Below, in pieces: positions 10,935-64,000 of a stretch of DNA of 64,000 bases. The translations under genes were made by a program, and so were the position numbers. The stretch covers positions 3,472,501-3,536,500 of the forward strand of contig NZ_CP108514.1 of the NCBI RefSeq assembly GCF_035989305.1, written 5' to 3'. The stretch's first letter is position 1, and every line of letters starts with the position of its first letter. Under the pieces are notes generated by a model. It had not been told where the DNA came from, did no database searches, and saw nothing but the letters and a program-made list of their open reading frames with translations. This DNA comes from Streptomyces sp. NBC_01233 (GTDB taxonomy: Bacteria > Actinomycetota > Actinomycetes > Streptomycetales > Streptomycetaceae).

Positions 10935-11180
10935 TCTAGCTGTTGCTGCACGATCACCAGCTCACGCGACACGCGCCGCTGAATGTCAGCCGCGCCCATC
11001 GACATGTACTCGGTCCCGTACGTGGCGAGCTTGGCCTCCCAGCTGTCTGCTGAAGGGCCGCCGGATAGCCGGGCGGCGAAATCCTGCGGACAGCAGCTCT
11101 GAAGCCACCACAGGGGCTATCGAGGCCCCCGCAACATCGGTAAGGAACGTACGTCGGTCCACTTCACCCTCAAGGACAGC
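10935..11180 (-). pseudogene. XRE/TPR regulator copy A, middle part
   Basis: It continues the gene upstream of the IS1634 insertion. The frame begins abruptly at LAVLEGEVDRRTFLTDVAG, next to the recombinase 3' end, and reads ASIAPVVASELLSAGF. It needs a one-base shift (an extra A near 11079-11081, seen as GGATTTCGCC for GGATTCGCC) to continue as AARLSGGPSADSWEAKLATY and on to the IS target site. The upstream DNA-binding domain is absent: the frame meets a TGA immediately before LAVLEG once IS630 is removed. RRTFL plus a hydrophobic stretch is the usual linker after the helix-turn-helix in this family. Confidence 0.8.
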
Positions 11181-12319: not shown

Positions 12320-12338
12320 CTACTGGCGCAGGACACTA
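11181..12338 (-). mobile_element. IS630-family insertion sequence with TA target duplication
   Basis: The ends GTGTCCTGCGCC (11183-11194) and GGCGCAGGACAC (12325-12336) are perfect inverted repeats, each flanked by TA (11181-11182 and 12337-12338), the duplicated target of IS630/mariner elements. It lies exactly at the 3' end of the recombinase gene and changes that protein's last residues. Removing it joins recombinase and XRE copy A sequence with no spacer. Confidence 0.9.
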
Positions 12339-13996: not shown

Positions 13997-14038
13997 GGGC
14001 GCAGACTACCGGTTGCGCGCTACCTCGGTAAGTAACTG

Positions 14039-14107
14039 GACGGCTGGGAGGCGATGATGGCCACGTGGGATTTCTGGTCCAACCACCGCGTCTCATGGCG
14101 GCCATAG
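14039..14107 (+). pseudogene. Displaced 3' end of the helicase gene
   Basis: Read in the helicase frame this gives DGWEAMMATWDFW then SNHRVSWRP and a TAG stop. It aligns with the present helicase end DGWEAMYTVWEHLQ then QHRVPWAPA. It has no start codon and can only be a stranded C-terminus. It marks the former junction of the host gene (or of an older element) before the recombinase element entered at the shared core. Confidence 0.75.
14042..14056 (+). other. attR core of the serine-recombinase element
   Basis: This is the second exact copy of GGCTGGGAGGCGATG (first at 8346-8360). It is followed by a displaced alternative end of the helicase gene. The P-side arm between recombinase ATG 13996 and the core is 45 bp, about the length of a serine-integrase attP half with spacer. 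Excision is predicted to restore the helicase frame with the ending found here. Confidence 0.7.
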
Positions 14108-14121
14108 GGCTACGGGTGCCC

Positions 14122-14523
14122 TCAGTGCCCGGTCACTTCATCCATGAGCATCCGCAGCGTCAGGGAGTGCTTCTCGGGTGGCAGAGCAGCCAAGGCAGCC
14201 TGCGCATACGCCACCCCTCCCGCACGGTCACCGGACCGAGCCAGCATCAGACCCCGGTGCATCTCCAGGTGGGTACGGAAGCGAGGAAGCGTTTCGGGAA
14301 GCTCTCGAAGGGCTTCCTCCTGCGCGCTGACGGCTCCCTTCTCATCACCGAGTCGGGCCAGCAGCAGTGACAGGAAGACGTTCATCCGCCACCAGGGAAC
14401 GGCGTGGTCCGAGGTCTGTTCGTACGAGCCTGCTCCGTCGAAGATGCGCCGCCCGTGGTCGGCGAGCTTCAGAGCCGAGTCCCGGTCACCTCGGAGTGCT
14501 GCGGCGTGGGCCTTGCCCATCAC
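14122..14523 (-). pseudogene. XRE/TPR regulator copy B, C-terminal fragment
   Basis: 134 codons homologous to the end of XRE copy A: GKAHAAALRGDR, then GSYEQTSDHAVPWWRMNVF and KHSLTLRMLMDEVTGH. The 5' two thirds are missing; the frame begins right after the MarR stop (14534). It sits 14 bp beyond the displaced helicase end, in the same convergent arrangement as copy A and the intact helicase. The whole module is therefore duplicated on the two sides of the recombinase. Confidence 0.8.
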
Positions 14524-14533
14524 AGCCCGGGGC

Positions 14534-15022
14534 TCAGGTCTTGCGCTTGGCGCCCTTGCGTTCGCGGAGGAGTTCGCCGACCTCGGCCAGGGTGCGGAGT
14601 TGGTCCGGTGTCAGGATGTCGATCAGGTGGCGGCGGACCGACTCCACGTGGAGGGGGGCCGCCTCCGTGATCGTGGCCACGCCCGTGCCGGTGAGGACGA
14701 CCTCCGCGCCCCGGCCGTCCGCGGCCACCTCCTCGCGGCGGACGACGCCGCGCTTCTCCATGCGGGTGAGCTGGTGGGAAAGCCGGCTGCGGGACCACTG
14801 CATCAGTTCGGCCAGCGCCGTGATCCGCATGCGGTGGCCGTCCGTGGAGCCGAGCACCGACAGGACGTCGTAGTCGGCCTCGGAGAGCCCGCTGTCCTGG
14901 CTGAGGTCGCGCGCGATCTCCGCGTTGACCAGCGGGAACATTCGCCGCCACGCGTACCAGGCGTCCTGTTCGGGATCCGTGAGCCAGCGGGGCGGCTCGG
15001 ATGCGGGGGTCATGCCTTCCAC
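14534..15022 (-). CDS. MarR-family transcriptional regulator
   Basis: Up to 162 aa from GTG 15022 (ATG 15013 is the alternative). The winged helix-turn-helix is clear: YDVLSVLGSTDGHRMRITAL, then LMQWSRSRLSHQLTRMEKRG, then the wing VVRREEVAADGRGAEVVLTG. Flanking N- and C-terminal helices form the dimer interface. It is divergent from the NAD(P)H reductase gene at 15127, and the intergenic region carries repeats that could be its operators. By analogy it represses itself and that reductase in response to a phenolic or electrophilic ligand (inference). Confidence 0.85.
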   Translation of the reverse strand: MEGMTPASEPPRWLTDPEQDAWYAWRRMFPLVNAEIARDLSQDSGLSEADYDVLSVLGSTDGHRMRITALAELMQWSRSRLSHQLTRMEKRGVVRREEVAADGRGAEVVLTGTGVATITEAAPLHVESVRRHLIDILTPDQLRTLAEVGELLRERKGAKRKT

Positions 15023-15034
15023 TGTAGCCAGGTC

Positions 15035-15098
15035 GGTGACACATCATCTATCTGGTTGACACGTCACACACCTTGCGGGTTTTATAGGTGACACATCA
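15035..15098. promoter_or_regulatory. Candidate MarR operators between divergent genes
   Basis: GGTGACACATCA occurs twice as a direct repeat (15035-15046 and 15087-15098). Between them is the dyad TGAC-AC-GTCA (15057-15066). These sit in the promoter region shared by marR and the reductase gene, where a MarR dimer would act. Confidence 0.5.
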
Positions 15099-15126
15099 AC
15101 AACTCCATCGACCGGGAGCTCCTTCC

Positions 15127-15696
15127 ATGACCCGCCTGCACGTCATCTCCGCCGCCACCCGCCCCACCTCCTCCGGCCGCCCCCTCGCCCACTGGGTCAC
15201 CGAGCAGGCCCGCGCGCACGGCGGCTTCGAGGTCACCCCCGTCGACCTCGCCGAGATCGCGCTGCCCTTCCTCGACGAGCCCGCATACGCCTCGACCGGC
15301 AACTACGCCCACCAGCACACCCGCGACTGGAGCGCCCTGGTCGACTCGGCCGACGCCTTCCTCTTCGTCCTGCCGATGTACAACGGCGGCTTCAGCGCAC
15401 CCTTCAAGAACGCCATCGACTTCCTCTACAACGAGTGGAAGGGCAAGGCGGTCGGCCTCGTCAGCTACAGCGCCGGCCCCACCGGCGGCGTCCCGGCCGC
15501 CGAGATGCTGCTGCCGGTGCTCACCCGCCTCGGCATGCTGCCCGCCGAGCGCTCCGTCGCGGTCCCGGGCATCCCCAAGCTGATCGGGCCCGAGGGCTTC
15601 GAGGCCCCCGAGGCGCTCACCGGCGAGCTGGCCGGCGTGCTGGACGACGTGGCCGCGCTGGCCGCGCAGCGCGCCGCGGAGTCCGTCACGGCGTGA
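15127..15696 (+). CDS. NAD(P)H-dependent FMN reductase (flavodoxin-fold oxidoreductase)
   Basis: 189 aa from ATG 15127, preceded by GGGAG at a good distance. It has the flavodoxin-like fold of the NADPH-dependent FMN reductase family. The FMN phosphate loop is SAATRPTSSGRPLAHW (residues 7-22), and LPMYNGGFSAPFKNAIDFLY (about 81-100) is the conserved flavin/dimer segment with the PxYNxGxxxxLKNAID-type signature. Next to a divergent MarR gene it probably detoxifies quinones or similar electrophiles. No membrane or export signal. Confidence 0.85.
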   Translation: MTRLHVISAATRPTSSGRPLAHWVTEQARAHGGFEVTPVDLAEIALPFLDEPAYASTGNYAHQHTRDWSALVDSADAFLFVLPMYNGGFSAPFKNAIDFLYNEWKGKAVGLVSYSAGPTGGVPAAEMLLPVLTRLGMLPAERSVAVPGIPKLIGPEGFEAPEALTGELAGVLDDVAALAAQRAAESVTA

Positions 15697-16023
15697 GCAG
15701 GCTCCCGGCGGGGTGGTCGTACGCGGCGTGCGCATCCGGCCCGCGCCGCACGGCCCGGACCACCGGGTCGAGAACGTCGCTGCGGGGTCCCTCCGCCTCA
15801 CCCCCCGAGGAGGCCGCACTCCTCAACGCCCTGTGACCCGGCGGGGCCGCGCCGCCGGCGCCGACCGATCAGCTGTGCGACTCCCCCGCCACGGAGACGG
15901 TCGGCCTGCTCGTGCACCTCGTCGGCCGTACAGGCGTTCCATGCCATCGCGTGGGGTCTTGCGTGGCGTTGGACAATGGACGGTGGCCCGGAAGCATTTC
16001 GCACGCGCAGCAGGAGGACACGG
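15697..16023. other. Intergenic spacer, no gene recognised
   Basis: 327 bp after the reductase. A 47-codon GTG frame (15693-15836) overlaps the reductase stop, and several reverse frames exist, but none has a family resemblance or a convincing ribosome-binding site. AGGAGG for the next gene is at the right end. Confidence 0.5.
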
Positions 16024-16365
16024 ATGGCAGAGCCCGAGCGGACCGAGCGACGGCTGCGGCCGGCGCCGCTCCTCTTCGAGCCCTCGGAGGCCGCGGGGGA
16101 CCCGGAGCACTTCTTCGACCTGGAATCGATCGAGGACCCGCGGGAGCTGCTGACCCGCGCGACCGAGCTGGCCCTCGCCTTCCGGGCGGCCCAGGACCGG
16201 GCCGTGGAGTTCCAGGCCCTGGCGGCGGCCCAGCTGGCGGACCCGCGGCGCTTCGACCGGCTCTCGCCCTCGGTGATCGCCGAGCAGGCGGAGTGGACCG
16301 AGGACTACGCCCGGAAGATGATCGAGTTCGGCGAATCCCTCCAGCGCAGCGCCGGTACGCCGTAG
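16024..16365 (+). CDS. Small acidic conserved protein (113 aa)
   Basis: 113 aa from ATG 16024, with AGCAGGAGG ending 7 nt upstream. It is acidic and helical: FEPSEAAGDPEHFFDLESIE, then DPRELLTRATELALAFRAAQ, then DRAVEFQALAAAQLADPRRF and a C-terminal helix EWTEDYARKMIEFGESLQ. No membrane segment or motif. I do not recognise a function. It is alone between spacers, and the ribosome-binding site makes the coding call firm. Confidence 0.7.
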   Translation: MAEPERTERRLRPAPLLFEPSEAAGDPEHFFDLESIEDPRELLTRATELALAFRAAQDRAVEFQALAAAQLADPRRFDRLSPSVIAEQAEWTEDYARKMIEFGESLQRSAGTP

Positions 16366-16586
16366 CGGGAGCCGGTCCGACCGCTGCGCGGGGCGACCTG
16401 GTGCTCCGCCCCGGGCCCCCGGCAACGGCGCCGCACCCAGCAACGACGGGCAGCCCGGGACGCCCATCGAGGCCAAGCACAGCGGACTGGCATATGCGGG
16501 GCGCAACATACCTCAGCCGCACCCCCCGCGTCCCGGTTTCCGGTAACTCCCGGAAACCGGCTCGCTACGGCCGGTACACCTGGCAT

Positions 16587-17177
16587 ATGACGACCCTGAC
16601 GACGGCTCCCGGCTGCACCGCCCTCGACACGCGGACCGCGCGGACCGCGCCCGCCACCCACGTCACCCCGCAGGGCGCTGCCTGGCTCGCCTCCGCATCC
16701 GCCCACCCCGGGAGCACCCTCGCGCTCTGGGAGGCCCGGCCCGGCCTGCCCGCCACGCTGCCCTGCGGGAGCGCCTTCGACGTCGTCAACGTTCCGCTCG
16801 TCCTCGGGCGCCGCGTCCTGGACCTGCTCTGGGCCGAGGGCCCCGGCTCCGGTCCGGTCGCCGTGCACCGCGGCAGGATGCTGCTCTTCGCCGCCCCCGG
16901 CACCGCCCACCGGCTCCCGGCCCTGCTGGCGTGGGAGGAGCGGGGAGGCTCCCGCACCGCCCCGGCACCCCTGTGCCACGGCCCCGGCGACGCCGTCACC
17001 GTGCCGCCGCTGGCCGCCGGCCCCGGCCCCTCCCGGTGGCTGGTCGCCCCCGACGCGCGGACGCCGTGGCTTCCCGGGCCCGAGGCCCTGCTCTGGGCCT
17101 TCGTACGGGCGGCCCGCAGCCCCGCACCGACCGGACCTGGGGATATCGATTTTTCGTTCCGCCGATCCTCCTGCTAA
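16587..17177 (+). CDS. Primase/polymerase-like small protein (196 aa)
   Basis: 196 aa from ATG 16587. The segment HVTPQGAAWLASASAHPGST ... ALWEARPGLPATLPCGSAFDVVNVPLVLGRR resembles the N-terminal portion of the bifunctional primase/polymerase-like small proteins common in streptomycetes. The catalytic acidic triad of a true Prim-Pol is not evident, so enzymatic activity is doubtful. It ends 18 bp before the tRNA-Lys gene at 17196. Confidence 0.6.
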   Translation: MTTLTTAPGCTALDTRTARTAPATHVTPQGAAWLASASAHPGSTLALWEARPGLPATLPCGSAFDVVNVPLVLGRRVLDLLWAEGPGSGPVAVHRGRMLLFAAPGTAHRLPALLAWEERGGSRTAPAPLCHGPGDAVTVPPLAAGPGPSRWLVAPDARTPWLPGPEALLWAFVRAARSPAPTGPGDIDFSFRRSSC

Positions 17178-17195
17178 TGTCTTCCTCGTCACCAA

Positions 17196-17269
17196 GCGCC
17201 GCTAGCTCAGTTGGTTAGAGCAGCTGACTCTTAATCAGCGGGTCCGGGGTTCGAGTCCCTGGCGGCGCA
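17196..17269 (+). tRNA. tRNA-Lys (anticodon CTT), copy 1
   Basis: A 74-nt cloverleaf. The acceptor stem GCGCCGC pairs with GCGGCGC, the D-arm is GCTCAGTTGGTTAGAGC, the anticodon stem GCTGA/TCAGC encloses CTCTTAA, and the T-arm is CGGGGTTCGAGTCCCTG. A is the discriminator; CCA is not fully encoded (CAC follows). A probable -10 TAATGT lies at 17175-17180. Identical genes occur at 27049 (minus) and 34830 (plus). Confidence 0.97.
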
Positions 17270-17276
17270 CAGACGA

Positions 17277-17310
17277 GAAGAAGGCCCCCACGCGAGTGGG
17301 GGCCTTCTTC
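17277..17310. terminator. Strong hairpin after tRNA-Lys
   Basis: GAAGAAGGCCCCCAC pairs perfectly with GTGGGGGCCTTCTTC around a GCGA tetraloop. It starts 8 nt after the tRNA and can also serve the convergent protease gene ending at 17345. Confidence 0.9.
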
Positions 17311-17344
17311 GTCGTGCCACGGCCGCGCCGCGGTCATCCCGCGA

Positions 17345-18580
17345 TCACGTCGTGATCTTCACCGTGTACGCGCCCGACCGGGTCCGGTCCGCCACCTCGA
17401 TGGTGATCCGCTCCCCCGGCACGGTGTACGTCTCGCCCACCTCCAGCGGCGCGTCCGCGAGCGGCGGGTACACCGAGCGGTCCCAGCACGCCTCCGTGTC
17501 CGGATGGGCGTCCATCACCTCGATGGGGCCGCCGCCGGACGCCGCCTCGTTGCGCACCCGGTAGACCAGCACCCCTTCCGTGCAGGTGTCCCCGTCGTTG
17601 CCGGCGGAGCCCCGCGCCTCGACGGCGATCGCGCTGCCGGGGCCCGTACGGATCACCGCGAGCCGGGTCCCGCCCGTGCCGCCGCTCGGCGGGGCCTGCG
17701 CCAGCGGCTGGAGCGTGTGCAGCGAGGAGCCCGACCGCACGCAGTCCACCTGGGAGCCGTCCAGCCAGCCCAGCTTCCACTTGTGCCAGGCGAAGAGGTC
17801 CGGGGCCATCCCGAACTGGCTGCCCATGACGTCCCAGTCGCCCACGTACGTGTCCCAGTCGCCCTTGCCGTCCGTGGGCCGGTGGTAGAGGTCGGGCAGG
17901 TCGAAGACGTGGCCGGTCTCGTGGGCCAGCACGTTGCGGTCCGGCGGGTGCCGCTCGAAGACGGTGACGATCCGCCGCAGTTCGGTGCCGTCCGCGACGA
18001 TCGGGCGGTCGAAGTTGACGACCTTCGTGGCGTCGGAGTCCACCCCGGGCGCGTCCGGGTCGGCGACGAAGTAGACGACGTCGTACTTGGCGAAGTCCAC
18101 CTCGGCGTCGGCGGCCGCGACCGCGTCCCTCAGGTAGGCCGCCCGGTCCCCGGGGGCCCAGTCCCGCCTTATGCCGTACGCGGTGGACGGCTTGGGCATC
18201 CGGATCCACTGCTTCTGCGGGTGCGGGGCCAGCCGGAACCGCCCGTACGAAGCCTGCTCGAAGAACTCGCTGGTGGCGGGGAAGTAGTCGCCGGCGATCG
18301 CCGAGGTCGTGAGGGTGCTGCGGTGGTCGGGGAAGGAGAGGAAGACCATGACCGCATCGAGTGTGCGCTCGGGCTTGGGGTAGGCGCCGTTCCAGCTGTC
18401 CAAGCCCAGCGAGTGGTGCGCCCCCGTCCGGGTCAGCGCGCAGGGTCCGGCGCCGGGATCGGCCACCGCGGGTCCCGCGACGAGCGACATGGCGACGAGC
18501 GCAGTGAGGGAGGTGAGCGCCGCAGCGGTACTTCGGATGCGGGAACGGTCCACTCCCCCGGGTGTCTGCTGTCGCGCCAC
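17345..18580 (-). CDS. Secreted M6-family metalloprotease
   Basis: 411 aa. The N-terminal signal peptide (basic head, then TAAALTSLTALVAMSLVAGPA, cleavage near VADPG at 40). The zinc site is H220-E-T-G-H224 in LAHETGHVFDLPDLYH, followed by the conserved GDWDVMGSQFGMAPDLFAWH segment with its Met turn. That order is typical of the immune-inhibitor-A-like M6 group. A beta-rich C-terminal domain follows. It is a secreted endopeptidase; the substrate is not evident. It is transcribed alone, convergent with tRNA-Lys copy 1. Confidence 0.88.
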   Translation of the reverse strand: MARQQTPGGVDRSRIRSTAAALTSLTALVAMSLVAGPAVADPGAGPCALTRTGAHHSLGLDSWNGAYPKPERTLDAVMVFLSFPDHRSTLTTSAIAGDYFPATSEFFEQASYGRFRLAPHPQKQWIRMPKPSTAYGIRRDWAPGDRAAYLRDAVAAADAEVDFAKYDVVYFVADPDAPGVDSDATKVVNFDRPIVADGTELRRIVTVFERHPPDRNVLAHETGHVFDLPDLYHRPTDGKGDWDTYVGDWDVMGSQFGMAPDLFAWHKWKLGWLDGSQVDCVRSGSSLHTLQPLAQAPPSGGTGGTRLAVIRTGPGSAIAVEARGSAGNDGDTCTEGVLVYRVRNEAASGGGPIEVMDAHPDTEACWDRSVYPPLADAPLEVGETYTVPGERITIEVADRTRSGAYTVKITT

Positions 18581-53090: not shown

Positions 53091-54064
53091 GACCGACCGG
53101 CAGTAGGGCCGTGGGTGTCGGTGATCGGCGGCCCGAGCGCAAGGCAGGCACGAGCCTGAGTGATCATGGAGTTCTCTACGCTCAGTGATCACCGGAGGGC
53201 TCGTGCCTGTCCTGCCATCATGCCTGCTCGAACCCCTGTGGGACCAGTTCGCGGCGCTGCTGCCCGCGCACGTGGACGGCCATCCGCTTGGCTGCCACAA
53301 TCCGCGCCTCCCCGACCGGATCGTCTTCGAGCACGTGATCGCTGCCCTCGTGCACGGCTCCGGCTACGAACGCATCGCCAGTCCCGGCTGCTCCGACCGC
53401 ACTATCCGACGCCGCGTCAGACACTGGGCCGACCTGGGGATATGTCAGCAACTGCACGCCTTGGCCCTGGAGGCGTACGACCGCATGATCGGCCTGGAAC
53501 TCGACGAACTGTCGGTCGACGGCTGCATCACCAAGGCGCCCTGCGGCGGCGAGAAGGCCGGCCGCTCCCCGGTCGACCGCGGCAAGCAGGGCCTGAAACG
53601 CTCGGTAGCAGCCGAGGCCCGCGGTGTTCCGCTCGGCCTGGTCTCCGCCGGAGCCAACCGGCACGACTCGCCCCTGCTCATCCCCACCCTCGACGCCGTG
53701 AAAACCCAGGTCGGACCACTCCCCGAGCAGGTCAACGTCAACCTGGACCGCGGCTACGACAGCGCGAAGACCCGGACCGCGCTGGAGGAGTTCGGCTTCA
53801 CCGTCGAGATCGCCCGCAAGGGTGTGCCCGCCCCAATCCAAGCCGGGAAACGCTGGGTGGTGGAGCGCGCACACTCGTGGATGAACGGCTTCGGCAAACT
53901 GCGGCGCTGCACCGAGAAGAACGGCAACGTCGTGGACTTCTACCTGCACCTCACCGCCACGATCGTCACGCTCCGCATGCTCATCCGCCGCGCGACGCTC
54001 CAATACCGCTGGGACACCCGCCCCACCACCCGACGACTCAAGTGACGCCTACTGCCGGTCGGTC
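53091..54064 (+). mobile_element. IS5-family insertion sequence, complete
   Basis: The terminal repeats GACCGACCGGCAGTAGG and CCTACTGCCGGTCGGTC are perfect inverted repeats, with TAA target duplications at 53088-53090 and 54065-54067 (the TNA target of the IS5/IS1031-like groups). 974 bp with one transposase ORF. Removing it restores GGGGGAGGA-CTTAGG-GTG in front of the sortase E gene. Confidence 0.92.
53185..54045 (+). CDS. IS5-family DDE transposase
   Basis: 286 aa, single uninterrupted frame. DUF4096-like N-terminus (LLEPLWDQFAALLPAHVDGH). DDE core: D in LSVDGCITKAPCGGEKAGRS, D in VNVNLDRGYDSAKTRTALEE and E in GKRWVVERAHSWMNGFGKLR. Basic C-terminus. Unlike many IS5-IS427 members it needs no frameshift. 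The copy looks intact and probably active. Confidence 0.92.
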   Translation: MITGGLVPVLPSCLLEPLWDQFAALLPAHVDGHPLGCHNPRLPDRIVFEHVIAALVHGSGYERIASPGCSDRTIRRRVRHWADLGICQQLHALALEAYDRMIGLELDELSVDGCITKAPCGGEKAGRSPVDRGKQGLKRSVAAEARGVPLGLVSAGANRHDSPLLIPTLDAVKTQVGPLPEQVNVNLDRGYDSAKTRTALEEFGFTVEIARKGVPAPIQAGKRWVVERAHSWMNGFGKLRRCTEKNGNVVDFYLHLTATIVTLRMLIRRATLQYRWDTRPTTRRLK

Positions 54065-54109: not shown

Positions 54110-55114
54110 ATGCGCCCCGACACGCCTGCCGAGCACATCGCCGAAGCCGAGCGCCTCATCCGCACGGCGACCCGCTACCCCGAGGACCAGGAGCCCTTGC
54201 TCCTCCAGGCCGCGGCCCACCTCGAACTGGCCGACGCACGCGACCGGGCGAGCACCCTCTACGACCAACTCCTCTCCTCCTCCCCGTCCGACCCCCACCT
54301 GATCAAGGCCCTGCAGGCGGCGAACCTCTGGGAGTACGGCCACGAGGCGGAGGCCCGCGCCCTCATCTCGGGCATCCGCGCCGCCTCCCCGAAGGACCCG
54401 GCGCCGTGGGAGGTCATCGCGGAAGCCCTGGAGGCCCACGACGAGTTGGAGGCCTCGCACGAGTGCTTCACCGAAGCGGCGACCCTCCTCATCACGGAGG
54501 ACGACCCGCTCACCCAGGCCACCACCGCCCTCCTGACGGGCCGCCACCGGGTACGCCGCCTCCTCGGGCGCCCGCACGACGACTGGGACATGGTCGCCGA
54601 CACCCGCCACATCGGCCCGATCCCCCTCGACGAGCTCCACGACCCGAAGCGCATCTGGGCGCTGGGCTCCGACGACCCCGCCGAACTGCGCGCCGAGATC
54701 GCCCGCCTGCGCGCCGAACTGGGCGACCGCCGCGCGGCCCTCTCCCGCCCCTTCCCGGTGGCGATCCTCCACTGGCCCGTACGCGAACTGGCCGAACTCC
54801 TCACCTCGTACCCCACGCTCGCCTCGGAGTACACCTCGCACGAGGCCCACCTGAGAGAGATCGAAACCTCCCTCCGCGCCCTCGCCGCCTCGGGCACCAC
54901 GAACCTCGGCATCGTCACCGCGAGCGTCCCGTCCTACGAGGCCTTCGCGGCCTCCGAAAAGACCTCCCCGGCCTCCCCGTCCCTCCTGGCCGAATACGCC
55001 ACAACCCTGGCAGCCCGCGGCAAGGCCACCCCCTGGCCCCCCACCCCCACGTCCCCCTGCTGGTGCACCTCGGGCAAGCCGTACGCGGAGTGCCACGGCG
55101 CCTCTCGGAGGTGA
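54110..55114 (+). CDS. TPR-like protein with SEC-C motif
   Basis: 334 aa from ATG 54110. Residues 8-135 form TPR-like hairpins (EDQEPLLLQAAAHLELADAR, then DPHLIKALQAANLWEYGHEA and ELEASHECFTEAATLLITED). The middle is helical. The C-terminal SPCWCTSGKPYAECHGASR is a SEC-C zinc motif (C-x-C-x8-C-H), as in the SecA tail and many accessory proteins. It is divergent from the class E sortase, with IS5 inserted between the two. Function unknown, possibly ribosome- or SecB-like partner binding through the zinc motif. Confidence 0.85.
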   Translation: MRPDTPAEHIAEAERLIRTATRYPEDQEPLLLQAAAHLELADARDRASTLYDQLLSSSPSDPHLIKALQAANLWEYGHEAEARALISGIRAASPKDPAPWEVIAEALEAHDELEASHECFTEAATLLITEDDPLTQATTALLTGRHRVRRLLGRPHDDWDMVADTRHIGPIPLDELHDPKRIWALGSDDPAELRAEIARLRAELGDRRAALSRPFPVAILHWPVRELAELLTSYPTLASEYTSHEAHLREIETSLRALAASGTTNLGIVTASVPSYEAFAASEKTSPASPSLLAEYATTLAARGKATPWPPTPTSPCWCTSGKPYAECHGASRR

Positions 55115-55276: not shown

Positions 55277-56815
55277 ATGCCCTATTCACCATCCGGCGAC
55301 TGGCAGTTCGAGATACCCACACTGGGCAGCAAGCAGCTTCCGCCAGCTGCCCGCTACGTCAAATCGCTGGCACATCAGGGATACGGATTCGAGGCCGCTA
55401 TCGCCGACCTCGTGGACAACTCGATCGACGCAGGCGCCCGCAACGTCGTCATTAGTTTTCTGCGCGCCGACGACCGGCTCGTCAGCCTGCTGGTCATCGA
55501 CGACGGCCGTGGAATGGACGACGCCGCTCTCGACGTCGCGATGATCGTCGGCGGCCGCGAGGGCTATGCCGACGGAGCGCTAGGCCACTTCGGAGCCGGC
55601 CTGAAGGCTGCCTCGCTCTCGCACGCCGAGTCCCTGACCGTCGTGAGTCGCACCAAGCGCAGTCCCGCCGCGGGGCGGCGCTGGCTGACCGCTCATGCGC
55701 AGCAGGACTTCAGCTGCGACATCGTGGATCCGCGGTACTGCCAGGATCTGGTCGACCGCTACGACGGGGTCATCGGATGGCACGGCACCATCGTCCGCTG
55801 GGATGCCGTCCGCGCCTTTGACACTGTGCTTTCCGGCCAGAGCGACCGGTTCCTCAACGAACAGATCGAGAAGCTGGAGACCCATCTCGGTCTCTACTTG
55901 CACAGGTTCCTGGCCCGGGACGGGTTCCACATCGACCTCGTCGTGGAGGACGTCCGCACCAAGGAGGAACTCGATCACCGGGGGGTGGAGCCGATCGACC
56001 CCTTCGGCTACCGGGTTCCGGGGCGAGCGGGCTACCCGCGGACATACACGGCTCCCATCGAGGGCGTCGGCGGCGTGGCTCTTCAGGCCCATGTGTGGCC
56101 GCCCCGGTCCCAGCTCGTGTCCTTCCGGGGCATCGGCCCACTGGCGGACCGGCAGGGCTTCTACATCTACCGCAATGACCGCCTCGTCCAGGCCGGCGGC
56201 TGGAACGGCATCCGCAGCGCGGAGACGCACCACAGCCTGGCCCGGATCTCGCTGGATCTTCCCTCGTCACCCAACGGCGTGTTCAGCCTGACCGTGAAGA
56301 AGGACGGGGTCAGCGTTACACCGGCATTCGCTCGCGGTATCGAGAAGGCCTCCGACACGGACGGCCATCCCTTTGCCGCGTACGTGGCAGAAGCGGAAGC
56401 GGTCTATCGCGAGGCTGCCCGGCGTTCCACTGAAGTGCAGCGCACGAGTGCCGTCCCGCCCGGAAAGGGAATCGATCCCAAGCTCAAGCGCACCCTCCGG
56501 GACGAGCTGCCGCAGATCGAGGGAGAGGACCCGATCACGTTCCGCTGGGAATCACTCCCGCCGGACGTCTTCTTCGACATCGACCGCGAGGAACACGCCG
56601 TCCGGCTCAACAAGGAGTACCGCCCAGCCTTCAACAACGGCCGGAGAGCGGGGGCGAATGACGCTCCGGCGCTGAAAGGCCTGCTCTACCTCATGCTCGA
56701 AAAGAACTTCCGGCTGGGCCGGTCGAGCGCCCAGCGCAACGACGAGATGGCCTTGTGGAACAGCGTGCTGGTGTCTGCCGCGCGTTGTGAAATGTCTCGT
56801 GGACTGGAGCCGTAG
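55277..56815 (+). CDS. GHKL (MutL/MORC-like) ATPase of a restriction island
   Basis: 512 aa from ATG 55277. The Bergerat fold is complete: N box FEAAIADLVDNSIDAGARNV with N48, G1 VIDDGRGMDDAALDVAMIVG (75-), and G2 GALGHFGAGLKAASLSHAES (102-). The rest (EGVGGVALQAHVWPPRSQLV, then SFRGIGPLADRQGFYIYRND) is the S5-like transducer domain region. This matches the MORC-like GHKL ATPases described beside Z1 and restriction genes (Iyer, Abhiman and Aravind 2008). It probably acts as an ATP-driven DNA clamp or switch for the nucleases downstream. It ends 6 bp before the Z1 gene. Confidence 0.88.
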   Translation: MPYSPSGDWQFEIPTLGSKQLPPAARYVKSLAHQGYGFEAAIADLVDNSIDAGARNVVISFLRADDRLVSLLVIDDGRGMDDAALDVAMIVGGREGYADGALGHFGAGLKAASLSHAESLTVVSRTKRSPAAGRRWLTAHAQQDFSCDIVDPRYCQDLVDRYDGVIGWHGTIVRWDAVRAFDTVLSGQSDRFLNEQIEKLETHLGLYLHRFLARDGFHIDLVVEDVRTKEELDHRGVEPIDPFGYRVPGRAGYPRTYTAPIEGVGGVALQAHVWPPRSQLVSFRGIGPLADRQGFYIYRNDRLVQAGGWNGIRSAETHHSLARISLDLPSSPNGVFSLTVKKDGVSVTPAFARGIEKASDTDGHPFAAYVAEAEAVYREAARRSTEVQRTSAVPPGKGIDPKLKRTLRDELPQIEGEDPITFRWESLPPDVFFDIDREEHAVRLNKEYRPAFNNGRRAGANDAPALKGLLYLMLEKNFRLGRSSAQRNDEMALWNSVLVSAARCEMSRGLEP

Positions 56816-56821
56816 CCCCCT

Positions 56822-59761
56822 GTGACTGACAATCTGCTCAATCTTCACACCGACGTGCTCGCCGCCATGCGCCGTGCCCCGAGGGGCTTCAGCCGGATCG
56901 CGGCCGGACTGTCGGAGACGGACGACGGCCACGACGCCGACCTTGACGTCTTCCGGGCACGCCTCGCCGCGAGCGACCCGGGGCTTATCACGGTCTGGAG
57001 CCGCTCCCTGGCCCAGTGGGACGCCGTCCTGACCGCCGACTGGTCCAGCGCGCCGCCCTGCTCGGACGCCCGGCGGGCCGACGTGTACGCGCTCCTGCGC
57101 TTCGATGACGACTTGTCCAAGGCACTGGACACCGCTGTTCCCGTCGACAAGGGCTCCCAGCCCGTGGTGATCAGCGAGAGCAACCAGGCCTGGTACACCC
57201 GGGACAAGGCGCTGGCCCGTGCGTTCTACTGGCCGGCGTACGAGGACCTCCTGCGGCGCAAGGGCTGGAGTGAGACGGCAATCACCAGCCTCGGGGAAGC
57301 TGCCCACAATGTCGTCGAACGGCTGGCGGACCCGGCACGGCCGGAGGCGTACGCGGCCCGGGGTCTGGTCGTCGGCTATGTGCAATCCGGCAAGACCGCC
57401 AACTTCACCGGTGTCATAGCCAAGGCGATGGACGCCGGCTACCGGCTGGTCATCGTGCTGGGTGGCACGCTGAACCTGCTGCGCGGCCAGACGCAGCGGC
57501 GGCTCGACATGGAGCTGATCGGACAGGAGAACATCCTCCGCGGCGCGGACCCGGACGATCTCGACGCGTTGATCGGTGTCGACTACCAGGACGACGAGGA
57601 CTGGCCCGCGAAGTTCGTCTCGCACGGCGGCCGGCCTTCTCATCGGGGAGCGTTCGACATCGAACGCCTCACGACAAAGGACAAGGACTACCAGTCCCTG
57701 GAGCGGGGCATCCGGGCGCTCGACATCGAGAAAGTGGAAAAGGCCCTTCCGCTCCATGACCCGGCGAACCTACACCATGCGGCAGCCCGCGTCATGGTGG
57801 TCAAGAAGAACAAGTCGGTCCTGACGAAACTCGTCAACGACCTCAAGAAGATCGGCCCGATCCTCAGCGAGGTACCGGCACTCATCATCGATGACGAGTC
57901 CGACCAGGCGTCCGTCAACACCACGAACCCGGCCACGTGGGAAGGGGGCAAGGCCAACCGGTCCGCCATCAACGGTCTCGTCTGCGAACTTCTTCGCCTG
58001 ATGCCGCGAGCCCAGTACATCGGCTACACGGCGACCCCTTTCGCCAACGTATTCGTCGACCCCGACGACTCCGCCGACCTCTTCCCGCGCGACTTCCTGA
58101 TCTCCCTCCCTCGCCCGGTCGGATATATGGGAGTGGAGGACTTCCACGACCTGCACTCCGACCTGCCCAGCTCCGAGCGGACGGTCGCCACCTCTCAGGA
58201 AGCCGCTCACGTGCGCGGCATCGACAGCGGTACGGGTGACCGCCTGCTGGAAGCGATGGACGCGTTCGTGCTGGCCGGAGCTCTGAAGCTCTACCGAGCG
58301 GCGAACGGCGTTCCCGAAGGCGCCTTCCGCCACCACACCATGCTGATTCACGAGTCGGTGCGCGTAGCGGACCACGCAGTACTCGCCGACCGCATCAAGG
58401 CGCTCTGGGATTCCTCTTACATGAGCAGCGAATCTCACGGCCGCCTGGCCGCGCTCTTCGAAGCGGACCACAAGCTGGTGTGCGGCGCCCGAGCTGACGG
58501 TCTGCCCGTCCCCGGCTCGTACGAGGGGCTACGCCCCCACGTCAGCCGCGCCCGGCAGCTCATCGCATCCGGCGGGAGTCCCGTCCTCGTCGTCAATGGC
58601 GCGAACGAAAAGGACTACGCGCAGCCCGGACTGGACTTCGACCGCACCCCGCACGTCTGGAAGATCCTCGTTGGCGGCACCAAACTGTCCCGCGGCTTCA
58701 CCGTGGAGGGTCTGACCGTCACCTACTACCGCCGGAAGACCCAGCAGGCCGACACCCTGATGCAGATGGGCCGCTGGTTCGGGTTCCGCTCCGGCTACCG
58801 GGACCTCGTGCGCCTCTACATCGGCCGGGAGGAACCCTTCGGGAGGGACAAGACGCTCGACCTGTACGAGGCGTTCGAGGCGATCTGCCAGGACGAGGAG
58901 GCATTCCGTTCCGAACTCGCCCAGTACGCGGAGATGATCGACGGCGAGCCTCAGCTGACGCCTACTCAGGTCCTCCCGCTGGTCTCGCAGCATCTCGGTC
59001 TCATCAAGCCGACAGCACGCAACAAGATGTTCAACGCCGAACTGACGGAAATCCGGTCACCGGGGCGGCCTATCGAGCCGGCCGCCTATCCCCGCGATGC
59101 TTCGGTGATCGAGGCCAACGGCAAGCGCTGGCTGCCGCTCCTCGACGTGTTCGGCCGGGCCGCGCAGACGCTGGAGCTGCCTCCGGACGAGACCAGCCCC
59201 CTCACCCGGAGGTTCGAGGCCAGGACGTCACTGATCCCGCATGCCAGCCTGGTCAGCGTCCTGCGTCAGCTGGAGTGGGAAGGCGACAACCACTTCGCTC
59301 CGCACCTCAGCTACCTCTCCAAGCTCGACGGCGAACTCGCCAGGGTGGACGACTGGCTGCTCGTCGCACCGCAGACGACATCGAGCCGACGGGTGGAAGC
59401 GAGCGTGCTGGGCTCCGCACCGACCTCGCTGGTCCGGCGCAAGCGTCAGCTCGACAAAGCCGCTTTCGGCCGTATCTCCGGTATGGAACACCGTCGATGG
59501 GCCGAATCCGTCATCAGGGAAGCAGGCGAGGACGTCACCAGCGCCCGAGCGGGCGCACTGGGTGTGGGGCCTCGCACGGGCATCGTCCTGCTCTATCCGG
59601 TGGTCGACACGTCTAACGACACAGGGCTCCTCTCTGCCGTCACAAACGGGACGGCAGATCCCCAGCAAGTGATCATGGCGTTCACAGTGGTCCCGCCCAC
59701 CGCAGCCAACGATTCTTCACGTCGCCTGCTCCGCTATCAGGCGATGCGGTCAGGTAGCTGA
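56822..59761 (+). CDS. Z1-domain helicase-like ATPase
   Basis: 979 aa from GTG 56822. Superfamily II-type motifs: Walker A LVVGYVQSGKTANFTGV (185-192), Walker B PALIIDDESDQASVNTTNP, motif III YIGYTATPFANVFVDPDDSA, motif V-like VGGTKLSRGFTVEGLTVTYY and motif VI DTLMQMGRWFGFRSGYRDLV. The intervening and C-terminal parts fit the Z1 domain (PF10593), which is found with MORC-like ATPases and endonucleases. It likely translocates on or remodels DNA for restriction. It is co-transcribed with the GHKL gene (6-bp gap). Confidence 0.9.
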   Translation: MTDNLLNLHTDVLAAMRRAPRGFSRIAAGLSETDDGHDADLDVFRARLAASDPGLITVWSRSLAQWDAVLTADWSSAPPCSDARRADVYALLRFDDDLSKALDTAVPVDKGSQPVVISESNQAWYTRDKALARAFYWPAYEDLLRRKGWSETAITSLGEAAHNVVERLADPARPEAYAARGLVVGYVQSGKTANFTGVIAKAMDAGYRLVIVLGGTLNLLRGQTQRRLDMELIGQENILRGADPDDLDALIGVDYQDDEDWPAKFVSHGGRPSHRGAFDIERLTTKDKDYQSLERGIRALDIEKVEKALPLHDPANLHHAAARVMVVKKNKSVLTKLVNDLKKIGPILSEVPALIIDDESDQASVNTTNPATWEGGKANRSAINGLVCELLRLMPRAQYIGYTATPFANVFVDPDDSADLFPRDFLISLPRPVGYMGVEDFHDLHSDLPSSERTVATSQEAAHVRGIDSGTGDRLLEAMDAFVLAGALKLYRAANGVPEGAFRHHTMLIHESVRVADHAVLADRIKALWDSSYMSSESHGRLAALFEADHKLVCGARADGLPVPGSYEGLRPHVSRARQLIASGGSPVLVVNGANEKDYAQPGLDFDRTPHVWKILVGGTKLSRGFTVEGLTVTYYRRKTQQADTLMQMGRWFGFRSGYRDLVRLYIGREEPFGRDKTLDLYEAFEAICQDEEAFRSELAQYAEMIDGEPQLTPTQVLPLVSQHLGLIKPTARNKMFNAELTEIRSPGRPIEPAAYPRDASVIEANGKRWLPLLDVFGRAAQTLELPPDETSPLTRRFEARTSLIPHASLVSVLRQLEWEGDNHFAPHLSYLSKLDGELARVDDWLLVAPQTTSSRRVEASVLGSAPTSLVRRKRQLDKAAFGRISGMEHRRWAESVIREAGEDVTSARAGALGVGPRTGIVLLYPVVDTSNDTGLLSAVTNGTADPQQVIMAFTVVPPTAANDSSRRLLRYQAMRSGS

Positions 59762-59774
59762 GACAACAGGCACG

Positions 59775-59802
59775 GGCAGCCCTGACAAGCATCGGGGCTG
59801 CC
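59775..59802. terminator. Hairpin between Z1 and NaeI-like genes
   Basis: GGCAGCCC pairs with GGGCTGCC, with outer CAC/GTG pairing. No T-run. It may be a terminator or attenuator that separates the ATPase pair from the nuclease genes. Confidence 0.55.
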
Positions 59803-59855
59803 GTGTTCGCCATGCACAGCACCAACGTACACATCATCAGACAAGGAACAGTCTC

Positions 59856-60818
59856 TTGCTTCCTCTGGATGTTTCAGCCGCGACCAACATCCACGCCCAG
59901 GCACTCTTAGAGGGTGACCCGGAGCTGTCAGCGGTGCACAAGCACATCCTCCGACTTGACCCAGCAGGCCAGCGATTCGCCGCCGTTCTCCGCGACACGA
60001 TCGACCAGCTTCTCAACGGCGAGGTCACTGGCCGGTACGACTGGAAGACGCTCTTCAAGACCGAGAAGACTCACGCGGGGACGCTCGTCGAGATCAATCT
60101 CCAGCGGGAGTTCACATTCGACGACGGCATCGACATGGACTACGAGATCGCGGGCGTCGATGTTGACTGTAAATACTCCCAGCAGTTCGGCGCCTGGATG
60201 ATCCCGCCCGAGGCAATGGGCCATCTCTGCCTTCTGGTGTGGGCAGACGACTACAAGAGCCGCTGGAGCGCCGGCTTGCTACGCATAACGCCGGACTGGC
60301 TGAACAAGGGCAATAACCGCGATCTGAAACTCACGGTGAAGGCTGAGCACCGGAACAAGATTCTTTGGCTTTGGCATGACACAGAGCTCCCGGAGAACGT
60401 ACTGCTACACATGAAGGAAGCCGACCGAGATGCGGTCATGACGCCAAAATCAGGCCAGGCTCGGCTCAATGAACTATTCCGGCGCGCACAGAATCGCCGC
60501 ATCGGACGAAGTGTTGTACGTACGGTCGCGCAGCAAAAGGACTACATGAAGCGAGTCCGCGGAAATGGCGGCGCCCGGTCAGCCCTCAAAGAGGAGGGCA
60601 TCGTCATCATGGGGGACTACGGGAGTCACCGCCGGATCGCAGCCGAACTCGGTCTGCCAGTTCCTCAGGAAGGTGAATTCGTAAGCACGCGCCTCGTCGA
60701 AGTGACGCACCTCCACAATGGGCAGCCGAGCGTTCACCTGGCCGGCCGGATGTGGACCTGCGCGCTCGCAGGAGAAGTATCGGCTGTGGCCCCGGCCCTT
60801 CCGTCCCATAGCGAATAG
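59856..60818 (+). CDS. NaeI-family type IIE restriction endonuclease
   Basis: 320 aa from TTG 59856, supported by AAGGAA 8 nt upstream. It matches R.NaeI throughout: TEKTHAGTLVEINLQREFTF, then DMDYEIAGVDVDCKYSQQFG (the D-x-D-C-K catalytic segment), GQARLNELFRRAQNRRIGRS and QKDYMKRVRGNGGARSALKE. R.NaeI (GCC^GGC) needs two sites, one an effector. The position known as Leu43 in R.NaeI, whose change to Lys makes a topoisomerase, appears here as Leu in IDQLLNG (recalled, not aligned by program). So this should be an endonuclease recognising GCCGGC. Confidence 0.92.
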   Translation: MLPLDVSAATNIHAQALLEGDPELSAVHKHILRLDPAGQRFAAVLRDTIDQLLNGEVTGRYDWKTLFKTEKTHAGTLVEINLQREFTFDDGIDMDYEIAGVDVDCKYSQQFGAWMIPPEAMGHLCLLVWADDYKSRWSAGLLRITPDWLNKGNNRDLKLTVKAEHRNKILWLWHDTELPENVLLHMKEADRDAVMTPKSGQARLNELFRRAQNRRIGRSVVRTVAQQKDYMKRVRGNGGARSALKEEGIVIMGDYGSHRRIAAELGLPVPQEGEFVSTRLVEVTHLHNGQPSVHLAGRMWTCALAGEVSAVAPALPSHSE

Positions 60819-60832
60819 GCGGACCCCGAAAG

Positions 60833-61588
60833 ATGACCACATCATTCGCCAGCCACCTGCTGGGCTGGAAGCGACTGGACAAGTCGCCGGCCCTCGTCGC
60901 CAACACCGCAGATACGAATAGCGAACCGTCCAAGGCTCTGGCCGCCGCAATACTCGAGCACCTTGACATCGCACCCGTAGTACACAGGACCAACCCCAAG
61001 GAGCTGGGCCCAGCCCTGGAGCACGCTGTAAGCCGCGACCTGGCTGACACTCTCAGCCGGCTGGCCCCTGCCCGAGCCTGGCAAGTGGATCACCGAGAGC
61101 TGGTCACTTCATTCAGCCAGTACGCACATCTGGCCAGGCTCTCGCAACTGCTTCGCCAGCACCCCGAACTACGTGCTGAACTCGGACGGGACTATCTGAT
61201 CAAGCCTGATGTCACCGTCGGCATCGAGGAGTCCCCTGACCCCGAGGACAAGCACTCTTTTCTGCACGCCGCCGTGTCCTGCAAGTGGACCATCCGTTCA
61301 GACCGAGTCCAGAACATTCGGCATGAGTTCCTCCAGATGATCAGGCACCGCCGAGGGCGGCTGCCACACCTTGTGACAGTTACGGCGGAGCCGATGCCTA
61401 GCCGCATCGCAGCTATCGCACGGGGAACTGGCGAAGTAGACGCCGTCTATCACATCGCCTTCGACTCCCTCACCGCGGCCGTCGACGCAGTGGGCAGCAG
61501 CCAGCAGAAGGACGACTGGCAGGAGTGCGTCGAGCAGCGGCGAGTCCTGCCGTACGAAGAACTGGCCGCCACTCTGGCAGGCTGGTAG
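60833..61588 (+). CDS. NgoMIV-family type IIF restriction endonuclease
   Basis: 251 aa from ATG 60833. It matches R.NgoMIV: FSQYAHLARLSQLLRQHPEL, then LGRDYLIKPDVTVGIEESP (catalytic Asp), LHAAVSCKWTIRSDRVQN (S-C-K), RRGRLPHLVTVTAEPMPSRI and ARGTGEVDAVYHIAFDSL. The metal site D...SxK...E is intact. R.NgoMIV cuts G^CCGGC as a tetramer. It lies 14 bp after the NaeI-like gene, so one operon encodes two enzymes with the same predicted target. Confidence 0.92.
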   Translation: MTTSFASHLLGWKRLDKSPALVANTADTNSEPSKALAAAILEHLDIAPVVHRTNPKELGPALEHAVSRDLADTLSRLAPARAWQVDHRELVTSFSQYAHLARLSQLLRQHPELRAELGRDYLIKPDVTVGIEESPDPEDKHSFLHAAVSCKWTIRSDRVQNIRHEFLQMIRHRRGRLPHLVTVTAEPMPSRIAAIARGTGEVDAVYHIAFDSLTAAVDAVGSSQQKDDWQECVEQRRVLPYEELAATLAGW

Positions 61589-61606
61589 CCGGAAAGGCAG
61601 ATCCCG

Positions 61607-62101
61607 ATGAGTCTTGTGCTGCACGAGCCTGACGGCGATGCGTGGTCACCGCCAGAGGGGTCATGGGCGTCTTCTGCTGCCCGGCGACGCAACATGCAAG
61701 CGATCCGTAGCCGGGACACCAAGCCTGAGCAGCTGGTCCGACGCCTGCTCCACGCACAAGGGCTGCGTTACCGCGTAGCCGCGAGACCTCTGCCCGGTCT
61801 TCGACGGACGGCAGACATCGTCTTCCGTCCGTCGAAGGTGGCAGTGTTCATCGACGGCTGCTACTGGCATGGATGTCCCGAGCACTACGTACCACCCAAG
61901 ACAAACCCCGGCTACTGGTCAGACAAAGTGGCCCGCAACATGGCCCGCGACCGGGACACCGATCAGCGCCTCCGCGAGGCAGGCTGGACAGTGCTCCGCT
62001 TCTGGGAGCACGAGCCGTCGGGGGAATGCGCCGTTCGGATTGCCGCAGAGGTCCAGAAGCGCCGTGCCCGCACAAGGAATACGGGCACGGGCGCGGTCTG
62101 A
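61607..62101 (+). CDS. vsr: Vsr (very short patch repair) endonuclease
   Basis: 164 aa. The Vsr core is ARRRNMQAIRSRDTKPEQLV, then RRLLHAQGLRYRVAARPLPG, RTADIVFRPSKVAVFIDGCY (catalytic Asp), WHGCPEHYVPPKTNPGYWSD and WTVLRFWEHEPSGECAVRI. The catalytic and zinc-binding residues are present. It nicks T:G mismatches that arise when 5-methylcytosine deaminates, protecting the GCCGGC sites methylated by the gene at 62102. Its stop abuts that gene's stop with no base between (tail to tail). Confidence 0.95.
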   Translation: MSLVLHEPDGDAWSPPEGSWASSAARRRNMQAIRSRDTKPEQLVRRLLHAQGLRYRVAARPLPGLRRTADIVFRPSKVAVFIDGCYWHGCPEHYVPPKTNPGYWSDKVARNMARDRDTDQRLREAGWTVLRFWEHEPSGECAVRIAAEVQKRRARTRNTGTGAV

Positions 62102-63298
62102 TCACGCCTGTCCGCGATCTCGCTCCCGGGCAGCCTGCAGGACCTCAATGATCGACTTGCCTACGGCAGCGGCCACTGGAGGCGGGAAGGCGTTCCCCAC
62201 CTGCCGGTACTGGGCGGTCTTACCGCCGTCGAAATGCCAGCCTCTCGGGAATCCCTGAATGATCGCTGCTTGCTCCACCGTGAGCATCGGCCCATCGGGT
62301 CCGAAGAGATCCCTGCCCTCGGATTCCTTCTTCTGGCAGGTCTCGGCATCATTCGCAACGCCGAGTCCCGAGACACCAAGCTGCTTCCAGGCTGCCTTGG
62401 CCCGGCTGGGTCCGAGGTCAGCGCCACCATGCTTCTTCGAACCGCCAACAAGAGTGGGCGCAATGCCGCCCCCCTTGCCCTTCAGCTCAGCGTCACGGTC
62501 TGTCGCCTTCTCGAGCCACGCGTCATACGCCTCGCGAGCGCGTTCCGCGTAGGCGCCCTTGAAGTAGGCCTTGTACCGGTCATGCATGGTCTGCTTGAGG
62601 GCATCCGCGACGCTCACCGGATCCTCGTGCGTCGGGGACGGCCACTCGTACTTCAGGTCCTTGAGTACGTCGTTCCGGATGGCCACCAAGATGGCACGCG
62701 GGCGCAGCTGCGGGACGCCAAAATCACTTGCCTCCAGGACACCCCACTTGCACACCGTGTAGTCGAGGCCTCTGACCTCGACTACATTCCCGTCCTCTTC
62801 GCGGTACTTACCACCCTGCAGCTGGGCCATGATCCAGTCGCGGTAGTCGGAGAACTTCGGGTCCATGATCCCGCGGACATTCTCGATCATCACCGCGCGG
62901 GGATTCAGCTGTTCAACCAGCTGCAGCATCCGGGGGAAGAGATCGCGGTCGTCATCCTTGCCCAGTTGCTTGCCCGCATGGGAGAACGGCGGACACGGAA
63001 CGCCTCCGGCCAGAAGATCCAGACCGTTTTGCCGCAGCAGCCTGCCGCTCTTCTCCAGATGCTTGTCGGGGTCGAACAGCTTGACGTCGGTTGGAGGTAG
63101 GAGGTCACAGTGCTCCTTCTCCCAGCTCCACTCCTTCCGCTCATCGATGTTCTTACGCAGCGTCCCAACCGCATGCGTATCGATCTCTACGAGCGCGAGG
63201 TGCCTGAAACCCGCTTGATGCAGTCCAATGGCCTGCCCGCCGGCTCCAGCACAGATCTCGACCGACGTGAACCTCGAACCTGAGTCAGTGCTGGTCAT
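62102..63298 (-). CDS. C5-cytosine DNA methyltransferase (GCCGGC type inferred)
   Basis: 398 aa. m5C motifs: I VEICAGAGGQAIGLHQAGFR, IV GGVPCPPFSHAGKQLGKDDD with the catalytic PC, VI AVMIENVRGIMDP, VIII QLRPRAILVAI, X YRQVGNAFPPPVAAAVGKSI. The variable region is 230-330. It is divergent from the HNH gene and converges on the restriction operon, being the only methyltransferase next to both nucleases. It must protect against both, so its target is inferred to be GCCGGC. Confidence 0.93.
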   Translation of the reverse strand: MTSTDSGSRFTSVEICAGAGGQAIGLHQAGFRHLALVEIDTHAVGTLRKNIDERKEWSWEKEHCDLLPPTDVKLFDPDKHLEKSGRLLRQNGLDLLAGGVPCPPFSHAGKQLGKDDDRDLFPRMLQLVEQLNPRAVMIENVRGIMDPKFSDYRDWIMAQLQGGKYREEDGNVVEVRGLDYTVCKWGVLEASDFGVPQLRPRAILVAIRNDVLKDLKYEWPSPTHEDPVSVADALKQTMHDRYKAYFKGAYAERAREAYDAWLEKATDRDAELKGKGGGIAPTLVGGSKKHGGADLGPSRAKAAWKQLGVSGLGVANDAETCQKKESEGRDLFGPDGPMLTVEQAAIIQGFPRGWHFDGGKTAQYRQVGNAFPPPVAAAVGKSIIEVLQAARERDRGQA

Positions 63299-63451: not shown

Positions 63452-64000
63452 ATGCGAAGCCCTGCCTGGACATGGGATGAACTGCTGCTGGCCTGCGCGC
63501 TCGTAGTCAAGAACGGCTGGCGGGAGCTGCGGGTCGGCGATCCAGCTGTGACCGAGCTCTCTGACCTGCTCCGGTCCTTGCCTCTGCCCGAGCGTGGCGG
63601 CCTGGCCGAGCGTCTTCCCGAGTACCGGTCGGTTGGGAGTGTCTCCCGCAAGACCACGGATCTTGCTTCCAACCATCCCGGCTACTCGGGCAGGCCCACG
63701 AAGGGCGGGAGCCTGGACAAGCGGATCATCGAGGAGTTCCTCACTCGCGAGGCCGCGATGCTTCAAGCTGCACAGGCCATCGAGGCCGGCATCGGGTCCG
63801 GCCAGCTTGCCCTGATCCCCGAGCAGCCCGATGAAGCAGACGAGGACGGAACGACCGCTGCTGAAGGTCGACTGCTTGCACGGTGGGCGATCTCTCGCGA
63901 GCGGAACCCCGCATTGCGCAGGCGCAAGATCAGCCAGATCCACAAACTTGGACTGCCTCTTCAGTGCGCTGTCTGCACCTTCGACTTCAGTTCTGCGTAC
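63452..64000 (+). CDS. HNH endonuclease, partial (runs off the window)
   Basis: 183 codons visible from ATG 63452. The N-terminal helical region (AWTWDELLLACALVVKNGWR, then RSVGSVSRKTTDLASNHPGY) is the module found in actinobacterial HNH restriction proteins. A charged linker follows, then ALRRRKISQIHKLGLPLQCA and VCTFDFSSAY, the C-x2-C start of an HNH fold, just before the window ends. It may restrict modified DNA (type IV) or act on its own. The catalytic HNH residues lie outside. It is divergent from the methyltransferase. Confidence 0.75.
   Translation, partial: MRSPAWTWDELLLACALVVKNGWRELRVGDPAVTELSDLLRSLPLPERGGLAERLPEYRSVGSVSRKTTDLASNHPGYSGRPTKGGSLDKRIIEEFLTREAAMLQAAQAIEAGIGSGQLALIPEQPDEADEDGTTAAEGRLLARWAISRERNPALRRRKISQIHKLGLPLQCAVCTFDFSSAY

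Follow-up and report, generated by a model that had tools for sequence, protein, structure and literature searches.

In the textbook view a type II restriction system consists of a single nuclease and a single methyltransferase; NaeI (type IIE) and NgoMIV (type IIF, from Neisseria gonorrhoeae) are both known to be specific for GCCGGC. Among the known systems close to the locus described here is the MORC/paraMORC-helicase group of Iyer, Abhiman and Aravind (2008, PMC2292703), in which a GHKL ATPase and an SFII helicase with the motif DThhQXuRhFG accompany a nuclease, a DCM methylase and Vsr. Such neighbourhoods were proposed there to loop DNA, and the abstract and half of the text name no NaeI, NgoMIV or pair of nucleases of the same specificity. 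Here we analyzed a 64,000-nucleotide stretch of Streptomyces sp. NBC_01233 (the window; contig NZ_CP108514.1, positions 3,472,501 to 3,536,500), which holds a cassette of this MORC/paraMORC-SFII type, as defined in that part of the 2008 paper, with an NaeI-like and an NgoMIV-like endonuclease next to a single C5-methyltransferase. Comparison with related loci indicates that one methyltransferase type serves both nucleases and that the pair recurs. The row of genes which the original prediction had read from the bare sequence (ATPase pair, double nuclease, Vsr and methyltransferase) was confirmed:

55277..56815, + strand: GHKL ATPase, MORC/paraMORC and MzaB-like (HATPase_c_3 69.9 bits; motifs DDGRGM and GHFGAGLK)
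56822..59761, + strand: second gene of the ATPase pair (a Z1 ATPase in the original prediction)
59762..59855, + strand: spacer between ATPase and nuclease genes, with a strong predicted RNA hairpin
59856..60818, + strand: NaeI-like restriction endonuclease, 320 aa, TTG start (PF09126 421 bits)
60833..61588, + strand: NgoMIV-like restriction endonuclease, short form, 251 aa
61607..62101, + strand: Vsr mismatch endonuclease (TIGR00632 138 bits, above cut-off)
62102..63298, - strand: C5-cytosine DNA methyltransferase (PF00145 177 bits; PCP, ENV and QxRxR motifs)

The two nuclease genes are co-directional and separated by 14 bp, and there is one methyltransferase for both (METHYLTRANSFERASE). For comparison, 68 fetched loci, all selected for having NaeI or NgoMIV, were annotated using profiles derived from the window proteins; after removal of three duplicates (L009, L013 and L016, whose contigs were taken, from their equal lengths, to be those of L083, L074 and L081) 65 remained, 17 with both nucleases, 42 with NaeI only and 6 with NgoMIV only. 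Including 12 loci added later, the set yielded 72 methyltransferases; 54 were of the window type, i.e. reached at least 400 bits with its own profile (12 from double, 33 from NaeI and 9 from NgoMIV loci); the 18 left off the tree include those of five double loci referred to below as group C. On the best tree of the 54, which like all trees here was a quick one without bootstraps, loci with NaeI only, with NgoMIV only and with both are interleaved. Nuclease content switches 15 times versus a shuffled mean of 19.0; for the label NaeI-only, seven changes are forced by well-supported branches, and there are supported sister rows of unlike nuclease content (e.g. L091/L121 and L096/L077). The other trees omit L131, L132 and L126 (NaeI) and L081, L148 and L145 (NgoMIV), and one of the tree analyses, used for the origins of the pair (below), gave a long-branch warning. 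From the interleaving we conclude that one methyltransferase type serves both nucleases. Furthermore, the window methyltransferase shows 45% identity to its counterpart adjoining NgoMIV in N. gonorrhoeae (L149), 45-48% identity to the enzymes of the NgoMIV loci L144, L145 and L152, and 44% identity to the enzyme of an NaeI locus carried by a Rhodococcus opacus plasmid (L151). That unrelated nucleases replace one another while the methyltransferase type stays the same is, at the level of sequence, the best evidence for a common target.

The pairing itself is recurrent. In the kind of genome survey which the original prediction had called for, covering 391 genomes, NaeI was also found in 13 of the 18 genomes carrying NgoMIV, within 1.4 kb in 12 of them; 54 of the 78 NaeI matches were fetched, the other 24 lying in frames of more than 500 aa (16) or scoring below 140 bits (8). 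Plasmid records gave 16 with NgoMIV and 3 with NaeI, none in both lists. Double loci span several lineages and more than one methyltransferase type, NaeI is repeatedly paired with CCGG-type nucleases of different lineages, and by our reading the NaeI/NgoMIV pair would have arisen three or four times. In the open-licence literature searched we found neither two unrelated nucleases of the same target recurring together with a single methyltransferase nor NaeI and NgoMIV in one operon; already known are the two nuclease families, both named in public annotation, and the operon layout, described in 2008 (PMC2292703).

Gain and loss of the second nuclease can be followed in the sister cassettes L015 (both nucleases) and L094 (NaeI only), which align at 88% over L015 3118-10008 and at 86% over 10727-17528. 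These flanks enclose a 718-bp stretch corresponding to about the whole NgoMIV gene, where L094 has 74 bp; L095, also without the ATPase pair, has its break at the same place as L094. As the NgoMIV stretch alone differs, the second nuclease is gained or lost without a methyltransferase of its own, and the two cassettes provide a natural with-and-without experiment for the NgoMIV gene. In the three closest double pairs dN/dS, obtained by a simple counting method, was 0.12-0.19 for NaeI and 0.10-0.17 for NgoMIV, like the neighbouring genes. Judged from purifying selection, gain and loss, and one broken copy, the pair is maintained but not obligatory; the original claim that the double nuclease is not redundant has to be given up insofar as it implied an obligatory double, since L015 and L094 differ just by the NgoMIV gene.

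Both window nucleases look intact at their active sites. The NaeI-like protein covers positions 2-284 of the 288 of PF09126, a full-length domain, scores 317 bits against the NaeI structure 1ev7 and retains the equivalents of E70, D86, D95 and K97, which we take to be the catalytic residues in NaeI numbering; they are intact in 57 of 59 loci. It shares these active-site residues with the NaeI restriction-modification system, and a C5-methyltransferase and Vsr stand nearby as they do there, an arrangement seen in 48 of the 59 annotated NaeI loci. Open frames of about 1,500-1,800 aa (G108, G186, G310, G134 and others) can contain NaeI domains as well, consistent with the NaeI-like effectors of NTP-dependent conflict systems described in excerpts of PMC7159879.

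The NgoMIV-like protein was recognized by the NgoMIV fold and family profile. Residues 152-177 of NgoMIV (26 residues), present in all nine canonical forms aligned, are faced by four residues in the window short form; this stretch may be the tetramer loop or part of the tetramer interface. All four catalytic residues (E70, D140, K187 and E201, after excerpts of PMC6344858 and PMC4652773) are kept, and so are six of the seven base contacts to GCCGGC (R191, S192, D193, R194, R227 and D34, after excerpts of PMC4652773 and PMC6326814). The candidate rule that the short form occurs only with NaeI was rejected: it is true for 17 of the 19 annotated short-form Streptomyces loci, the exceptions being L077, whose genome (G081) gave no NaeI match, and L075, whose NaeI lies on a different contig. 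Beyond the order, short forms were seen in three genomes without an NaeI match, G562, G467 and G659 (the last 66% complete). Also rejected was the idea that the group C proteins (L079, L080, L084, L085 and L086) are dead enzymes, despite the absence of E70 and E201: all five have D at the N197 place, suggested in excerpts of PMC4652773 for the second acidic residue of BsaWI, and may thus be active or not. Group C also lacks R227 and is accompanied by other methyltransferase types, so its target may differ.

We consider it fairly probable that the window holds an ordinary GCCGGC restriction system which gained a second nuclease of matching specificity. The methyltransferase would mark GCCGGC, Vsr would mend T:G mismatches arising from deamination, and the two nucleases would cut unmarked incoming DNA in parallel. 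NaeI requires a second site as effector (excerpts of PMC4081073) and should hence be weak on DNA with few sites, which the short, possibly dimeric NgoMIV could cover. Several points weigh against this account. The target is one that we infer by homology, from the known specificity of NaeI and NgoMIV. In six loci outside Streptomyces (L141, L142, L143 and L150 with NgoMIV, L146 and L147 with NaeI) the methyltransferase is just 24-28% identical to that of the window, so a nuclease does not strictly go with one methyltransferase type, and 12 further loci within the order have other methyltransferase types. Unlike NgoMIV, the window protein is short, has its methyltransferase in common with NaeI and carries K in place of the minor-groove contact Q63 (assigned after excerpts of PMC4652773); activity of the short form may not be assured, as the missing stretch is possibly part of the tetramer interface. 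The short form also occurs alone in other actinobacteria (L141-L143) and is therefore not an adaptation to NaeI as such. Finally, the NgoMIV frame is broken in one double locus (L081, on the same contig as L016).

As to why the pair is kept, a tentative answer, which we regard as possible, is that selection has repeatedly favoured a design in which an NaeI-type nuclease is joined by a CCGG-type one of unrelated fold and equal specificity, combining blunt with staggered and two-site with perhaps single-site cuts under one methyltransferase; a phage escaping one nuclease through rare sites or an inhibitor would be cut by the other, and two types of break would be harder to repair. Somewhat less probable to us is that the second nuclease is tolerated because the host is already protected by the methyltransferase, and persists by selfish addiction or drift with little gain in defence. 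The presence or absence of the NgoMIV gene alone between sister cassettes, a recurrent site that brings cassettes together (see below) and the broken copy fit this explanation, whereas purifying selection of comparable strength on NgoMIV and NaeI, pairing in several lineages with more than one methyltransferase type and the 14-bp co-directional spacing in the window speak against it. It covers much of the data without any benefit of having two nucleases, and the data do not decide between parallel benefit and a mere passenger. Quite improbable is a hetero-complex in which NaeI binds the short NgoMIV, e.g. as an activating second-site contact, to form one two-site enzyme: the recurrent association of NaeI with CCGG-type nucleases from distinct lineages and the stretch missing from the short form would suit it, but NaeI-only and NgoMIV-only cassettes are common and short forms occur in genomes without an NaeI match. 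A recurrent cassette of two nucleases and one methyltransferase would make the reason for the two-site requirement of many restriction enzymes directly testable.

The slot next to NaeI can also be filled otherwise. At L109:8270-9280 (- strand) an unnamed nuclease family (P0121-P0240), which has no Pfam match, carries a recognition motif of the CCGG type and is predicted to fold like NgoMIV, occupies the NgoMIV slot of one NaeI cassette, a replacement found in one of the 391 genomes. For unnamed nucleases of this kind, exchange under one methyltransferase type may provide a sequence-only hint of specificity. A 271-aa protein family at L097:8675-9487 (+ strand), with relatives in L099, L096, L113 and L086, likewise adjoins NaeI or NgoMIV; two members scanned gave no Pfam or PADLOC match.

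The ATPase genes lie just upstream of the nucleases on the same strand, with intact ATPase motifs, and the spacer hairpin has a predicted energy of -31.8 kcal/mol (z -3.4; 1 of 200 shuffles equally good). The pair is present in 17 of the 54 related loci, somewhat more commonly in double cassettes (7/12 versus 10/42). These points and the proposed DNA looping would suit a gating of the nucleases by ATP, which we hold to be quite improbable and, the pair being optional, unsupported; of the interpretation in the original prediction, the common methyltransferase type stands and the obligatory double falls. The GHKL ATPase has a single ExxxH, at residue 230, a candidate for the ExxxH conserved in the S5 domain of paraMORC2. 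Membership in the MZA anti-phage system (MzaABCDE) was rejected, as the window scores far under the curated cut-offs (MzaB 135 of 850 bits, MzaC 255 of 1500 bits), and MzaA, MzaD and MzaE gave no match in the seven window proteins scanned. An MzaD-like DUF4420 protein occurs in other cassettes (L084 and L125).

The cassette is flanked by two further genes:

54110..55114, + strand: SEC-C/TPR protein gene (Pfam SEC-C 26.6 bits)
63452..64000, + strand: HNH endonuclease gene, truncated by the window end (PF01844 26.8 bits for the full protein)

An IS4/5-type transposase gene lies just upstream of the SEC-C gene (53185-54045), with no relative at E 1e-10 among the other loci searched. Homologues of the SEC-C gene were found in 15 of 30 relatives besides the window genome (15 of the 18 of the same genus). 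In 35 of 77 loci the gene is located upstream of the cassette, 28 times no more than 1.2 kb away. The stretch examined did not contain it in the other 42 (of which 12 come mostly from outside the order), so other places harbour cassettes as well. When 15 SEC-C loci were taken from relatives regardless of NaeI, two held an NaeI cassette, four other C5-methyltransferase/Vsr genes, one the HNH gene alone and eight none of these. The proteins of five of these eight were scanned, revealing a helicase-PLD-DUF3427 protein in L162 and L166, an endonuclease/exonuclease/phosphatase-family protein in L164 and a PCMT-like methyltransferase in L173, while no family was matched in L170. The SEC-C locus is a recurrent Streptomyces site for restriction cassettes, which helps to explain the exchange of cassette parts, and perhaps hosts other defence genes too; the SEC-C gene is its chromosomal anchor and probably not part of the system. 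On the other side, the HNH gene, ending about 207 bases past the window (L092:11707), adjoins the methyltransferase divergently in 30 of the 54 related loci.
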